Positions 25,032 through 30,885 of a DNA stretch of 64,000 nucleotides are shown here, in pieces; positions within the stretch are counted from its first letter, which is position 1; each line of letters opens with the position of its first letter. The translations under genes were made by a program, and so were the position numbers. This DNA comes from Clostridia bacterium (GTDB taxonomy: Bacteria > Bacillota > Clostridia > Peptostreptococcales > Acidaminobacteraceae). The stretch is from NCBI GenBank assembly GCA_016937975.1, contig JAFGVN010000141.1, positions 1-64,000 on the forward strand, in the 5' to 3' direction. The notes under the pieces were generated by a model. It was not told where the DNA came from. It did not search any database and worked only from the letters and a program-made list of their open reading frames with translations.

Positions 25032-26684
25032 TTATACTTCCATGATGAAATATGTAATATCATCTTCATTGGATCCCATTTCTTCATTGATATAAGATTT
25101 TATTTTTTCGTTTAAACTTTTTAAACTTCGGTTTCTATAATCAAATAGGACCTCTTCCAAAGTCTCTTGTGAAATAGTATTGTTTTTTCTATTGTCAACC
25201 AGGCCATCTGTATAGAAAATAATTCGATCTCCTTTATCCAACTGTAAGATTTCACTTGTATAGGTTGGTGTAAAATAGGCACTCATTTTACAAATTGGAA
25301 AACCTTGACTTTTATCTAAATAACTTTTCGTACCATCTTTTTTCATTAAGATGGGATAACAGTTTATACCTCCAGAAGCATATGTTAAAATACCAGTTTC
25401 TATGTTATACGAGGCAAAAAACATTACCATGTACATCTCATCAGGAAATTTCATTTTATTGAATTCTTCATAGAAATGTTTTAGGTTTCTATGAGGCTTT
25501 AATCCTCTATATTTCATGATTAGTTTTTCTGATGATTTAATATAATTGTTGCAAAACATAGTCATTAAAGCAGCAGAAACACCATGTCCTGATACATCAA
25601 GAACATACATCCCTATATTTTCATCATCTAATCTATATATGTCAAAGAAGTCTCCACTTAATCTTTCACAAGGAAAGTATTCTGAAACAAAAATAACTTT
25701 GTTGAAATTGACTTTTCTAGCTGGCAACAAAGACTGTTGTATACTTTTTGCATACTCAATCTCTTGAATCAAACGCATGTTGTTGTTCTTCATTTCAGTG
25801 GTTCTACGATCAACAATAACCTCTAGATTTTCAGCATAAAGTTTTATTTGTTTTTCTTCGTTAATTAAATGTTGTATTGGACTTAAAATATTGTAACCAA
25901 AGATGGCATTGTATAAATATATATAGCCTATAAAAATATAACCCGTATATATAAAATGGAATAAATAGGTGTAATTCACAAAGGTTAAACGGATAATCTG
26001 TGCAATTAAAAGAATAATCAATCCGTTCATAAACAACATAAGATATCGATTCTTTTTAATGGCATAACTTCTATAATGAAATGCAAAGGTAAGAATTAAG
26101 ACAACTGATACCAAGTATTCAGTTATGGTATGTATATGCTCAGGGATTATAATATCCAATGCAATTCTCCCTGTATTTAGGGATAGAGCTACAATAACGG
26201 ATATTGTCCATAAACCATAAATAATGACTCTTAATAACGTCGCATTATAGTTTTCAATTGTTGCGTCGATGGAAACCATAGCGCCAAGCAGCATTCCTAC
26301 AGCGATGATTAGTCTACTCAAGGAAGATAAATATAATAAAGTGTCATAATTTAATTCTGAATTTAACCAATTTACATTCGCAAAAGCAATGAAACCAACA
26401 CCACCACCAAGTGCAAAAAAAACAGCATACAAAATCATCCTAGTTCGATTAGTTGTTTTTATGGCACGTCTACAAATATTTACAACGAGTAAGGAGATGG
26501 CTATAATACCAAATTCAAATACAAAGGGAATCCCTTGCATACCTGTAGTATTAATAAATTTTGTTAAGCTCGATTCCCAAATAAAGGATATAAAAAATAA
26601 AATCAGAAGAAGACCGATGGAAAATACCATCGATCCATATTCTGAATAAACAATTAATTCTTTAACTTTCTTTAGAGACTTCAT
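25032..26684 (-). CDS. Membrane SpoIIE/RsbU-type PP2C protein phosphatase
   Basis: 550 residues. The first 265 or so hold eight or nine membrane helices resembling a MASE-type sensor region. A coiled-coil linker (about 270-325) leads into a PP2C-like domain (about 330-550). The metal-binding acidic residues are in LSGDFFDIYRLDD, MYVLDVSGHGVSAAL, FYTDGLVD and the final EDDITYFIM. This class dephosphorylates anti-sigma-factor antagonists; no STAS antagonist or RsbW-like kinase is nearby. It is the last gene of a tight operon, 15 bases after the uridine kinase. What it senses is unknown. Confidence 0.9.
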   Translation of the reverse strand: MKSLKKVKELIVYSEYGSMVFSIGLLLILFFISFIWESSLTKFINTTGMQGIPFVFEFGIIAISLLVVNICRRAIKTTNRTRMILYAVFFALGGGVGFIAFANVNWLNSELNYDTLLYLSSLSRLIIAVGMLLGAMVSIDATIENYNATLLRVIIYGLWTISVIVALSLNTGRIALDIIIPEHIHTITEYLVSVVLILTFAFHYRSYAIKKNRYLMLFMNGLIILLIAQIIRLTFVNYTYLFHFIYTGYIFIGYIYLYNAIFGYNILSPIQHLINEEKQIKLYAENLEVIVDRRTTEMKNNNMRLIQEIEYAKSIQQSLLPARKVNFNKVIFVSEYFPCERLSGDFFDIYRLDDENIGMYVLDVSGHGVSAALMTMFCNNYIKSSEKLIMKYRGLKPHRNLKHFYEEFNKMKFPDEMYMVMFFASYNIETGILTYASGGINCYPILMKKDGTKSYLDKSQGFPICKMSAYFTPTYTSEILQLDKGDRIIFYTDGLVDNRKNNTISQETLEEVLFDYRNRSLKSLNEKIKSYINEEMGSNEDDITYFIMEV

Positions 26685-26699
26685 TCTTACTCCAACTTA

Positions 26700-28343
26700 T
26701 TACTCTGTAAAATAACTTCCACCAATAAATTCTTTCAGGATTGATGTGATTGGTACTAAAGTGTCATCATCAATAGATTTAAAATAAGATAAAAATTTCA
26801 ACAATCTTTTTGCTTCTCTATACTCAGGCAGATCTTCAGAAATCGCTTCTAAGAGTGGTTCTGCATGTTTCTTTAAAATAGATAATTCAAAACTTAAAGC
26901 AGAATTAAACATGGCATCAGCTTCTTCTTGAAATGGGAAAATATTCTTTTCTTCACCACGTCTTACGGAAGGCCATAGTTTAAGTGTTTTTAAAGCATCG
27001 TGACCTCTGTACTTGCTATCTCTTACTATTCTTCTGATTAAACGTGAATCCGTTGTAGGAATTCTGTTGTGTTCATCAATATTCAATTGTGTCAATGCAC
27101 TAATATATATTTTGAATTTATGCTCTGCTGCAATTTGTGCAGTCAATTTTTCGTTTAAGCCATGAATCCCTTCAATTATTATCGGCTGATGTTCATGAAT
27201 TTTTAAGGTTCTACCATTATATTCTCGTTCACCTTTAATAAAATTAAAAGTTGGAAATTCTACTTCTTTACCTTCAATTAAGCCTGCCAAGTCAATGTTA
27301 AATTGCTTAACATCTACAGCATCAATGGATTCAAAATCAGGATCACCTTTTTCATCGACAGGTGTAAATTCTCGATTAACAAAATAATCATCTGTTGACA
27401 ATGTAATGGGATCGTAGCCATTGACCATTAATTGTATTCTTAAACGATTTGCAAAAGTTGTTTTCCCTGATGAAGATGGACCAGCAATTAAAATGACCTT
27501 TTTGTCTAATGAGGTTATTTTATCAGCAATTTGTGCAACCTTTTTTTCTTGTAAAGCTTCACCTAAAATCATCAACTCTTTATAATTGTCTTTTTCAATT
27601 TCTTCATTTAATTCAAAAACATTACTGACACTTACAATATCTCCCCATTTTTCAGATTCTCTAAAAATGACACCAAGTTTTTTGTGATCTTCAAACTCAG
27701 GCAACTCAAATGGTGAAGAACTAATTGGATGCCTTAAAATTACACCATGATCATAAGGAATCAGATCAAAAGAATGAATATAATCCACTGATGGCATCAT
27801 ATAACCATAAAAATAGTTTTTTAACCACCCGCAGGTATAAATATTAATTTGATCATGTTCACGATATTTCAACAATTTGGCTTTAGAGTGAAATTCCAAA
27901 TCTTCAAATATTTTTTTTGCTTGTTCTAAATCCACATTCTCTTTATGAATTTTTTCCTTCGTTTCAATGATTTCACTCATTCTTGTTTTGATATTCTCTA
28001 TATCTTCATGTGTCAATTCACGATGATACTGAAAATCACAATACAGCCCCTTACTTAATGAATGTCTAATGTTCACTTGCAAATTCCTAAACAGTTCCAT
28101 AGCAGCACGAATGAAAACAAAGGACAAGGTTCTTTGATAAATACGTATACCATCAGACATGGTTAAATCTATCCACTCTATGGTTGCATCTTCACTAACT
28201 TCTTTAAACAGCTCTTGAAGTTTATTATTGACAATGGCAGCTACAATTGTTGGTTGGTCTTTTTTTTGATATTCATTTTTAAGATTTTCCAATAATACGG
28301 GTTGATTATATTCTAAAACGTCAGAACCTATTTTAAGTTTCAT
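26700..28343 (-). CDS. Nucleoside (uridine) kinase with N-terminal TGS and ThrRS-editing-like domains
   Basis: 547 residues. Residues 1-60 look like a TGS domain, 60-225 like the threonyl-tRNA synthetase second additional domain (HRELTHEDIENIKTRM), and 280-480 are a phosphoribulokinase/uridine kinase domain with P-loop GPSSSGKTT (288-296), the STDDYF strand, IIIEGIHGLNE and RRIVRDSKYRG. It should phosphorylate uridine or cytidine with ATP or GTP for pyrimidine salvage. This three-part layout is a known Firmicute/Thermotoga type. It is 13 bases after the HEPN gene and downstream of a pseudouridine synthase in the same operon. Confidence 0.9.
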   Translation of the reverse strand: MKLKIGSDVLEYNQPVLLENLKNEYQKKDQPTIVAAIVNNKLQELFKEVSEDATIEWIDLTMSDGIRIYQRTLSFVFIRAAMELFRNLQVNIRHSLSKGLYCDFQYHRELTHEDIENIKTRMSEIIETKEKIHKENVDLEQAKKIFEDLEFHSKAKLLKYREHDQINIYTCGWLKNYFYGYMMPSVDYIHSFDLIPYDHGVILRHPISSSPFELPEFEDHKKLGVIFRESEKWGDIVSVSNVFELNEEIEKDNYKELMILGEALQEKKVAQIADKITSLDKKVILIAGPSSSGKTTFANRLRIQLMVNGYDPITLSTDDYFVNREFTPVDEKGDPDFESIDAVDVKQFNIDLAGLIEGKEVEFPTFNFIKGEREYNGRTLKIHEHQPIIIEGIHGLNEKLTAQIAAEHKFKIYISALTQLNIDEHNRIPTTDSRLIRRIVRDSKYRGHDALKTLKLWPSVRRGEEKNIFPFQEEADAMFNSALSFELSILKKHAEPLLEAISEDLPEYREAKRLLKFLSYFKSIDDDTLVPITSILKEFIGGSYFTE

Positions 28344-28356
28344 ATGGTACTCCTTT

Positions 28357-29133
28357 CTAATTTAGATGATCAATTAATTCATAGATATACTCATTTATTT
28401 GTGCATATTTATATCGTTCAAGTTTTACATCCAATTTCTTTAAGCATTTATCAAAGTCATCTAAAACATTATATGGGTTACCATAATATCTATAGATGTC
28501 ATCAATTGAAACTCCTTTAAATCCGTGACCTACAATAGAATCATTTCGAAGTTCAATTAATGCTTTCATATGGTCTGAATTTAAGATTTTTTCTATTTCT
28601 GAGTACTTATATTCATTTTTAAGATATCGATGAATATAAGTGGTGATTCCATACATTAAATTAGAGTTGTAAATGCGATACTTCTTTCTAAGTTTCTTTA
28701 AAATTTCTCTTTTTTCCATTTGGAGATGAATCAGCGAAAATCTATTTTTATCAATGTGGTTACTTACAAAAATATATTTTAAAACAGCCTCTTTAAACCG
28801 ATAGACCCGACCTAAAAAATCAATATACTCCTCATTAACAATTTGAAACTTAATATTTTCCATCAACTCAGAAAAAATAGCATCAGGGTGTCCATCAATT
28901 AAAGCATCTAAATTTTTAGACATATCTTTCACATTTTGTCTACTTTTTTCTTTTTCAGATAAAGTACCTAGTAACTGACGCGCCGTTTTAAAATCAAAAT
29001 TCACTGCATATCGGCAGGAATTCATTACCTTTGCAACATCAGTTTCATGTAACCCTTTTTCATCAAGTAAATCTAATGCGCCACCGTAATCATAACGGTC
29101 AACTAGCTTTCTTAAAGTTTTATAAGTATCCAT
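28357..29133 (-). CDS. HEPN-domain protein resembling the Csm6/Csx1 ribonuclease module, without CARF domain
   Basis: 258 residues, no signal or membrane segment, rich in basic and aromatic residues and all-helical in appearance. Two stretches recall Csm6-type HEPN domains: VDRYDYGGALDLLDE near the N terminus with a second CRYAVNFDFKTARQLL, and the catalytic-type RX6H motif in ELRNDSIVGHGFKG (Arg196, His203). HEPN RNases use such a motif, as a dimer, to cut single-stranded RNA. There is no cyclic-oligoadenylate-binding CARF domain and no CRISPR locus in the window. It lies 11 bases after a pseudouridine synthase and 13 before a uridine kinase, so a housekeeping RNA role is possible. Family assignment is by eye. 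Confidence 0.65.
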   Translation of the reverse strand: MDTYKTLRKLVDRYDYGGALDLLDEKGLHETDVAKVMNSCRYAVNFDFKTARQLLGTLSEKEKSRQNVKDMSKNLDALIDGHPDAIFSELMENIKFQIVNEEYIDFLGRVYRFKEAVLKYIFVSNHIDKNRFSLIHLQMEKREILKKLRKKYRIYNSNLMYGITTYIHRYLKNEYKYSEIEKILNSDHMKALIELRNDSIVGHGFKGVSIDDIYRYYGNPYNVLDDFDKCLKKLDVKLERYKYAQINEYIYELIDHLN

Positions 29134-29144
29134 AAATGGCCTTT

Positions 29145-30041
29145 CTACATATGTTTTTTTACAAAATCATCTATTTCCTGAGAGGATTTTTCGAAAACAT
29201 GTGATTCGACTTCTACCTTGTAGGCATGTAATAGCTGATTCTTAATATTGTTAAAAGTTTTTCCATTATATTTTCGATCACCAACAATTGGATGTCCAAT
29301 ATATGCCAAGGAACTTCTAATTTGGTGAGTACGCCCTGTTAAAAGCTCTACCTCAACCAGTGTAAATCCATTAGCGGTATTCAAACTCCTATACTTTGTA
29401 TGAACAAATTTACTTTCATCTTTCTCATTTTTACTGATGACAACTTTGTTTTTTTCTTCATCTTTTACTAAGAATCCTTTAACCTCCCCTTCCCCTTTCA
29501 GAGTTCCCCATACAATGGTTAAATAGTATTTATGAATCTTACGTTCTCGCATTAAAGCATTATATCTTTTTAAGGATTCATAGGTTTTTCCAAAAATCAC
29601 AAGACCACTGGTGTTCTTGTCTAATCTTTGTATGGATGCAGGTTTAAAAGTTCTTGTACACAATGGTTTTAAATAAGTCTGCACCTTTGTGGCTAGAGTC
29701 TTTTTGTACTCACTTTGGTCTGGATGTGTCAGTAATCCTTTAGGTTTATTTACAACTAATATTTCATCATCTTCATAAATAATATCTAAGTCTACAGTTT
29801 CGGCATCAACTATTTCTTCAACTTTAATCAGTTCATCAATGGCATTATCATGTAAATGAATTTCAACAACATCGGCTTTCTTTAACATATAGTTTTCTTC
29901 TACACGATTACCATTAACTTTAATTCTTTTCTTTCTGATTAACTTATAGATGTTTGTTTTGGTAGTGTTATTTAAGTATTTAACTAAAAAACGGTCTAAA
30001 CGTTGCTCCATTTCATTCTCAGTAATAATGATGTTTTTCAT
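29145..30041 (-). CDS. RluA-family pseudouridine synthase with S4 domain
   Basis: 298 residues. An N-terminal S4 RNA-binding domain (about 10-75; RLDRFLVKYLNNTTKTNIY) is followed by the RluA catalytic domain. The catalytic aspartate is in SIQRLDKNTSGLVIF, and further motifs are VVNKPKGLLTHP and LLTGRTHQIRSSLAYIGHPIVGD. Members convert specific uridines of 23S rRNA (RluC/RluD type) or tRNA to pseudouridine. The layout is closest to RluC, but the exact target cannot be read from sequence. It is the second gene of the operon, seven bases after the acetyltransferase. Confidence 0.9.
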   Translation of the reverse strand: MKNIIITENEMEQRLDRFLVKYLNNTTKTNIYKLIRKKRIKVNGNRVEENYMLKKADVVEIHLHDNAIDELIKVEEIVDAETVDLDIIYEDDEILVVNKPKGLLTHPDQSEYKKTLATKVQTYLKPLCTRTFKPASIQRLDKNTSGLVIFGKTYESLKRYNALMRERKIHKYYLTIVWGTLKGEGEVKGFLVKDEEKNKVVISKNEKDESKFVHTKYRSLNTANGFTLVEVELLTGRTHQIRSSLAYIGHPIVGDRKYNGKTFNNIKNQLLHAYKVEVESHVFEKSSQEIDDFVKKHM

Positions 30042-30048
30042 ACTTCTC

Positions 30049-30885
30049 CTAAAATTCTATTTCAATAATACTAAACTCAATGGATTCAACAAATCCAATG
30101 GATTCATAAAGTGATACTGCGGAATGATTATCTTTCAGCACCGCCAGTATAGGAATACAGCCCTGTGATTGTATTGTTTGTATCAAAGTACATACAAGTT
30201 TTCTTGCCAAGCCTATTCCTCTTTTGTTTGGTACAACAAAAACACCACCAATTTGCCAAAATGCTTTTACTTTTTCCTCTACAAAACCCTGTCCAACAAC
30301 TTGATGATCACATTGAGCAAATAAATACTCACCCGTTCCCATTTTAAGCTCAATTCTCTTTTGAATTTGATTGATGGTCATGTGATTTCTTCCAAAGTGC
30401 TTTTCTACTGCCACAAGGAAATTTGAAGAAGCTTTTGCAACATTAAAGGTTGCCTCAACAATTTGTTGATCCACAGAAAAATCTAAAAGTTTTTCGTTAA
30501 GAACCATATACATGCTGTTTTTATAATTATACCTTTTTACCGTTCTTTCAAACATTTTCCAAATTAATGCAACCATGTCAGCGGGCCCTGACATATACTC
30601 TGGTTTGTGGAATTTAATGGCTTTGAGTAAATCTACTTTTCTTGTAACCTGCTCACTTTTAAAATGCAATAAGCACCTTTTATTATTGGTGAAAAGGAAA
30701 ACTCCTAAAAGTAATTTTTCCTCAAAATAACCATAGTATACACCAGAATCCTTATTGGCGATTTGATATTTTAAACCTGCTTTTTCATAGCATTTTATCA
30801 ATTCAATACAACCCCAAAAGTCACTGTAAAAATACTTTTCCACTTGGGCTTGATGTGCTTCATTTAATTTAATTATTTGACTCAA
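30049..30885 (-). CDS. GNAT-family N-acetyltransferase
   Basis: 278 residues. The C-terminal part (about 150-278) is a GNAT fold: the acetyl-CoA pyrophosphate loop is VVPNKRGIGLARKLV (pattern Q/RxxGxG/A), and VLKDNHSAVSLYESIGF is the final helix-strand. The N-terminal half (HQAQVEKYFYSDFWGCIELI) is a partner domain common in uncharacterised Firmicute acetyltransferases. Substrate unknown. It is the first gene of the operon leading to RluA, HEPN, uridine kinase and phosphatase. Confidence 0.85.
   Translation of the reverse strand: MSQIIKLNEAHQAQVEKYFYSDFWGCIELIKCYEKAGLKYQIANKDSGVYYGYFEEKLLLGVFLFTNNKRCLLHFKSEQVTRKVDLLKAIKFHKPEYMSGPADMVALIWKMFERTVKRYNYKNSMYMVLNEKLLDFSVDQQIVEATFNVAKASSNFLVAVEKHFGRNHMTINQIQKRIELKMGTGEYLFAQCDHQVVGQGFVEEKVKAFWQIGGVFVVPNKRGIGLARKLVCTLIQTIQSQGCIPILAVLKDNHSAVSLYESIGFVESIEFSIIEIEF

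Follow-up and report, generated by a model that had tools for sequence, protein, structure and literature searches.

A putative CARF-less ribonuclease of the Csx1/Csm6 type, probably a core chromosomal gene product in part of Peptostreptococcales

The window, the whole 64 kb stretch of DNA analysed here, carries a run of genes for a GNAT acetyltransferase, an RluA-family pseudouridine synthase, a HEPN protein, a ThrRS-like/P-loop kinase fusion and a SpoIIE-type phosphatase (Table 1), and the order GNAT-RluA-HEPN-kinase-SpoIIE probably represents one transcript. The HEPN gene is separated by 11 bp from the pseudouridine synthase gene and by 13 bp from the kinase gene, and Shine-Dalgarno-like sequences, read by eye, precede its start (AGAAAGG) and that of the kinase gene (AAAGGAG). 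The plus-strand frame across the same interval contains 23 stops, and the open reading frame is real on the minus strand, running from 29133 to 28357. A repeat scan (copies of at least 22 nt, spaced at most 150 bp apart) found no CRISPR array in the 64 kb and only two imperfect two-copy repeats. The original prediction had described this gene, its spacing, its pseudouridine synthase neighbour and a window free of CRISPR, all of which held; its label of uridine kinase for the other flanking gene fared less well, as set out below.

Table 1. Genes and features of the HEPN locus, in window coordinates
Feature	Coordinates	Strand	Basis
GNAT acetyltransferase gene, probable first of run	30049..30885	minus	PF00583 E=8.8e-11
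RluA-family pseudouridine synthase gene, upstream neighbour	29145..30041	minus	TIGR00005 206.7 bits, cut-off 192.7
CARF-less Csx1/Csm6-type 6H-HEPN protein gene, 258 aa	28357..29133	minus	ORF, Csx1 profile match, motif
Weak Csm6 6H linker match, residues 8-28	29050..29112	minus	PF22206 E=0.015, under cut-off
HEPN domain, residues 87-212	28498..28875	minus	Pfam PF09670 (Csm6 HEPN) E=1.1e-5
RX6H motif, Arg196 to His203	28525..28548	minus	R196, G202, H203 and G204 invariant in 74/74 orthologues
ThrRS-like/P-loop kinase fusion gene (uridine kinase-like), downstream neighbour	26700..28343	minus	PF00485 E=2.5e-15; TIGR00418
SpoIIE-type phosphatase gene, last of run	25032..26684	minus	PF07228 E=9.4e-30
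Terminator-like hairpin after SpoIIE gene	25016-24985		

Judged by its profile matches, the gene product is a Csx1/Csm6-type 6H-HEPN protein that starts where a CARF domain would end, because the PADLOC, Pfam and hhalign matches all cover the post-CARF part. The PADLOC Csx1 model PDLC01509 matched the protein at E=1.1e-34, with residues 4-253 falling on profile positions 187-438 of 440, and a profile of 22 family members aligned by hhalign with nine longer relatives from outside the order (99.7% probability, E=7.7e-26), residues 3-232 falling on columns 178-424 of 460. The Pfam HEPN score of the window protein was 25.6 bits, just under the curated cut-off of 27. Across the family, PDLC01509 was matched by all 22 scanned members (E<=0.001), PF09670 by 17 (E<=0.01) and the 6H linker model PF22206 by nine (E<=0.01; best 3.1e-6). 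No CARF part of any Pfam or PADLOC profile matched the window protein. The Csm6/Csx1-like HEPN identity, the RX6H motif and the missing CARF domain had all been proposed from the sequence by eye and were borne out, the profile searches suggested at that stage having returned Csx1/Csm6 HEPN matches. The two stretches taken for parts of the HEPN domain (YDYGGALDLL and NFDFKTARQLL) were misplaced, as both precede it, on the side of the 6H linker. A chance occurrence of RX6H was also considered and is ruled out by the Csx1 profile match and the alignment to longer relatives. Sequence searches with the window protein, the 22-row profile and one longer relative found no related solved structure, and an AlphaFold prediction made from three sequences only had a mean pLDDT of 41.5.

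Outside the order, the class sample yielded matches in 3 of 391 genomes, with open frames of 440-548 aa, and the phylum sample in 7 of 398, with open frames of 451-523 aa except in G832. The nine intact ones among these relatives measure 432-546 aa and have the HEPN block at the C-terminus. A Pfam CARF model was found in five of them at E<=0.01 (L082, L083, L092, L093 and L094; three under the curated cut-off), and the remaining four (L081, L088, L089 and L091) probably carry the domain too, given their length and a Gly-Thr pair that is invariant in all nine and which we take to be part of the CARF motif. The surroundings of L081, L088 and L089, the three examined, are type III CRISPR loci in which the gene lies beside Cas10 and Cmr4 or Csm3. 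The window protein shares with these Csx1/Csm6 CARF-HEPN ribonucleases (PDLC01509; PF09670 with PF22206) the 6H-type linker and the HEPN domain with RX6H over the aligned residues, but is shorter (258 aa against 432-546), has no CARF domain, and is encoded outside a type III locus by a gene that, in most of the genomes of its family, is single-copy and keeps its synteny. By sequence the family is a Csx1/Csm6 relative, yet by its lack of CARF and of type III context it is not a Csx1/Csm6 effector. The exceptional G832 (L090, C86:16255-17088) holds a short relative, a 304-aa frame with a stop inside the match and an ORF of 280 aa, which could be the remnant of a CARF-HEPN gene or another short form and is taken here for a broken gene. 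In a tree with long branches, only 34% of bootstraps gave the short form one origin; CARF may have been lost, or its absence may be ancestral.

The distribution of the gene was followed in a sample of 297 Peptostreptococcales genomes, 133 of which belong to four families, f1 (the family of the window's own genome), f3, f5 and f11. An intact single copy is present in 89 of these 133 (f1 39/41, f3 35/71, f5 5/5 and f11 10/16), in open frames of 255-316 aa, and among good-quality f1 genomes it is present in 28 of 28. The order-wide search, made with one query sequence and at most eight candidates scored per genome, matched 90 of 297 genomes at E<=0.001, and by subtraction no copy was found in the remaining 164 genomes sampled from the order. 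A 36th match in f3 (G172) is weak and lies inside a 458-aa frame. Nine small genomes of the window's own family (1.4-2.1 Mb; G005-G012 and G036) retain the gene, though two others, G035 and G037, which are 63-70% complete, do not have it. A locally truncated or decayed Csx1 was rejected because the same short frame occurs in 89 genomes and all 74 aligned copies keep the motif. No relative was found in plasmids, phages (tblastn, E<=1e-5) or viral contigs, which removes a mobile-element gene from consideration. The distribution looks vertical and supports long residence of the HEPN gene in the chromosome.

The orthologue alignment comprised 74 sequences (39 from f1, 21 of 35 from f3, five from f5 and nine of 10 from f11). 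Conservation of Arg196 and His203 among orthologues had been proposed as a check on the original prediction, and both residues are present in every sequence; further invariant positions include E89, D105, R109, Y111, R112, E115, K119 and F122. A HEPN protein that binds RNA and has the fold but no longer cuts would suit the pseudouridine synthase gene adjoining it in most f1, f5 and f11 loci. This is improbable, as both catalytic residues are invariant in 74 sequences that are 32-79% identical to the window protein. Of 24 pairs compared, 17 had a finite dS, and in these dN/dS ranged from 0.013 to 0.163, a range like that of the neighbouring genes; the ratios are rough because several dS values exceed 1 and approach saturation. 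The HEPN gene is under strong purifying selection.

Position 197, directly after the catalytic Arg, is Asn in 40 of the orthologues and His in 34. The motif R, N and H recur with the same spacing in all nine longer relatives, so that each of these has Asn at position 197. According to PMC10897365, the corresponding Asn of TtCsm6 is paired, in the apo form, with the His of the partner chain, and binding of cA4 frees it. A relaxed position 197 would fit the loss of CARF-type locking, or His may simply be allowed there.

Type III CRISPR systems were sought with two markers. The Cas10 palm model PF22335 matched 31 of 41 f1 genomes, mostly weakly, and also matched E. coli; it cannot by itself mark type III CRISPR, and the presence of such systems was therefore tested with the RAMP model PF03787 instead. 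Seven of the PF22335 matches were examined. The five in the window's own genome (L131-L135) are GGDEF proteins, three of them above the cut-off in the genome search. The RAMP model identified such genes in 2 of 41 genomes of f1 and in 10 of 71 of f3, and 68 of the 74 carriers of the HEPN gene in f1 and f3 have none, the window's genome among them, the exceptions being G016, G039, G097, G149, G154 and G198. In f1 and f3 the HEPN gene is independent of type III CRISPR. A type III system in the window's own genome was likewise rejected, RAMP genes being absent from it and its Cas10 palm matches being GGDEF proteins. The six RAMP-bearing carriers are the one point in favour of an effector acting in trans, in which a CARF domain from another protein would confer a response to cyclic oligoadenylate (cOA); this is extremely unlikely against the 68 carriers without RAMP genes and an own genome in which every Cas10 palm match is a GGDEF protein. 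Among the exceptions, G016 and G039 are the two f1 genomes with RAMP genes. The PF22335 match in G039 is a real Cas10, and that in G016, though weak, adjoins RAMP genes, has no GGDEF model match and is probably Cas10 too. The G016 genes (L113) form a III-D-like set and those of G039 (L112) a Cas10a set, and close to the latter is a gene that resembles an RT-protease (PADLOC RT-Protease_XI, E=2e-16).

The neighbourhood of the gene varies between families. The RluA gene lies directly upstream in 34 of 39 f1, 5 of 5 f5, 7 of 9 f11 and 0 of 21 f3 loci; in f3 this place is taken by an RsmF-like methyltransferase gene in eight of the 21 loci and by other genes in the rest. Directly downstream is the kinase gene in 26 of 39 f1 loci, or lepB, encoding signal peptidase I, in 12 of 39 f1, 5 of 5 f5, 9 of 9 f11 and 21 of 21 f3 loci, and in 67 of 74 loci the kinase gene is no more than four genes downstream. 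Of the seven remaining loci, five are truncated by the end of a contig or locus. Pfam assignments for recurrent neighbours, one member each, gave signal peptidase, TIM-barrel, CBS, PrsW and RsmF. A survey of orthologues for RluA and kinase neighbours, proposed at the outset, thus recovered the kinase broadly and RluA in three families but not in f3, and this absence counts against the suggested tie to rRNA/tRNA modification.

Genomes lacking the HEPN gene bear on its relation to these neighbours. Eighteen of the 44 genomes without an intact copy were searched for the kinase gene, which was found in 17, and in each of these 17 loci lepB is no more than two genes upstream of the kinase gene. The lepB-kinase pair is kept where the HEPN gene is missing, so the neighbourhood exists independently of it. 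In seven of the 17 loci (L118, L119, L121, L123, L126, L128 and L130) only 16-142 bp separate lepB from an RsmF-like gene, too little to accommodate the HEPN gene, which was either cleanly lost or never gained there; in the other ten the stretches end too early or are ambiguous. Since six genera of one family are without the gene, these seven loci have no room for it, and the copy in G079 (f11) is broken, the HEPN gene is dispensable. The G079 remnant, at the usual place (C3:98532-98948, locus L074), consists of fragments with two TGA in one reading and is consistent with recent loss. Together, synteny and the HEPN-less loci point to old vertical residence and clean absence and not to a functional tie to the neighbours, and the case for an operon-based function of the HEPN protein is weak.

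The kinase itself may not be a uridine kinase. The uridine kinase model has a cut-off of 220.3 bits and scored only 74.5, and residues 77-194 form a ThrRS-like part (TIGR00418 E=5.3e-11, under cut-off) that precedes the P-loop kinase part. By architecture the protein belongs to the same family as a three-domain Thermotoga maritima protein of ThrRS-like/P-loop make-up, for which PMC10248530 describes ATP splitting in the presence of uridine and no formation of UMP. The annotation as uridine kinase is therefore doubtful, and the proposed role in uridine recycling is weakened by this behaviour of the T. maritima enzyme and by the persistence of the lepB-kinase pair without the HEPN gene. A different pairing was also considered, in which the HEPN protein would cut RNA and the ThrRS-like/P-loop kinase would act on the 5'-OH ends. 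A HEPN nuclease with a polynucleotide kinase is the arrangement of Las1-Grc3, Las1 being the eukaryotic HEPN RNase of ITS2 processing (PMC10942766); the likeness lies in ordinary RNA processing beside a kinase and is one of analogy only, with no sequence relation claimed. The frequent nearness of the two genes and the ATP splitting of the T. maritima protein would suit such a pair, which is nevertheless very unlikely as a complete explanation, since the kinase and its linkage to lepB are kept in HEPN-less genomes and two loci (L066 and L072) retain the HEPN gene with no kinase in reach.

A role in defence deserves more weight, although it too is unlikely. The gene, fixed in the chromosome, could encode an RNase for defence or growth arrest that stays silent in normal growth and is activated by some trigger in infection or stress, which would make it a CRISPR-free abortive-infection gene. 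Csx1/Csm6 and many HEPN families work in defence (PMC3710099), whole genera are without the gene, and a weak Abi_C match covers the motif of the window protein (E=0.007, 16.9 bits against a cut-off of 24). Such a gene would nevertheless sit oddly with the empty searches of phages, plasmids and viral contigs, with recurrent neighbours that are RluA or RsmF-like, lepB and kinase genes and not defence genes, and with its carriage by nearly every f1 genome and all f5 genomes at housekeeping-like dN/dS. HEPN-MNT and Abi HEPN toxins share the RX4-6H motif (PMC3710099), but the best HMM matches of the window protein are to Csx1/Csm6, and no MNT antitoxin gene was seen among the window neighbours (GNAT, RluA, kinase and SpoIIE) or the recurrent neighbours checked by Pfam elsewhere.

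The best explanation, with a probability of roughly 0.6, is that the gene encodes a Csx1/Csm6-type ribonuclease that has no CARF sensor and now belongs to the chromosomal core of part of Peptostreptococcales. This suggests that an enzyme of defence was adapted to everyday work on RNA. A fuller version, held at about even odds, is exaptation of a type III effector nuclease: CARF would have been shed early in part of Peptostreptococcales, leaving a vertically kept core HEPN ribonuclease that acts on a physiological RNA, possibly paired with the ThrRS-like kinase in the manner of Las1-Grc3 and doing the cutting in that pair.

Csm6/Csx1 RNases are known for being indiscriminate and for being switched on by an alarm molecule through the CARF domain. 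In the CARF-less ribonuclease proposed here the 6H and HEPN parts are retained, and two chains should dimerise, their two Arg196/His203 motifs forming one metal-independent site that would cut single-stranded RNA. Other HEPN RNases produce 2',3'-cyclic phosphate and 5'-OH ends, and by analogy cleavage would leave the same ends here. Control would lie in expression, a partner or substrate shape, as there is no CARF and most carriers tested have no type III genes for cyclic oligoadenylate. Since an active RNase that cut without discrimination would harm the cell, the activity is probably low, selective or tied to a partner. The protein may contribute to RNA processing or turnover in a modest and selective way, with substrate choice made without cOA. 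PMC10897365 supplies two precedents, stating that the HEPN nucleases studied so far require dimers and that some Csm6 proteins cleave without cOA.

The original prediction had called a HEPN ribonuclease in such a housekeeping setting unusual, and a CARF-less Csm6/Csx1-type HEPN protein among housekeeping genes stands as such. Among the literature matches listed, titles and the starts of abstracts contained no description of a CARF-less Csm6/Csx1 core protein. A sensor-free member under strong purifying selection across several families would mean that the HEPN core can be kept in check with no CARF domain, and the family offers a direct test of what CARF and the 6H part each contribute to control. 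If the proposed reading is true, machinery of immunity has been turned to ordinary RNA metabolism. Defence-finding tools may report an orphan Csx1 in these genomes, every scanned member of the family (22 of 22) matching CRISPR effector models.
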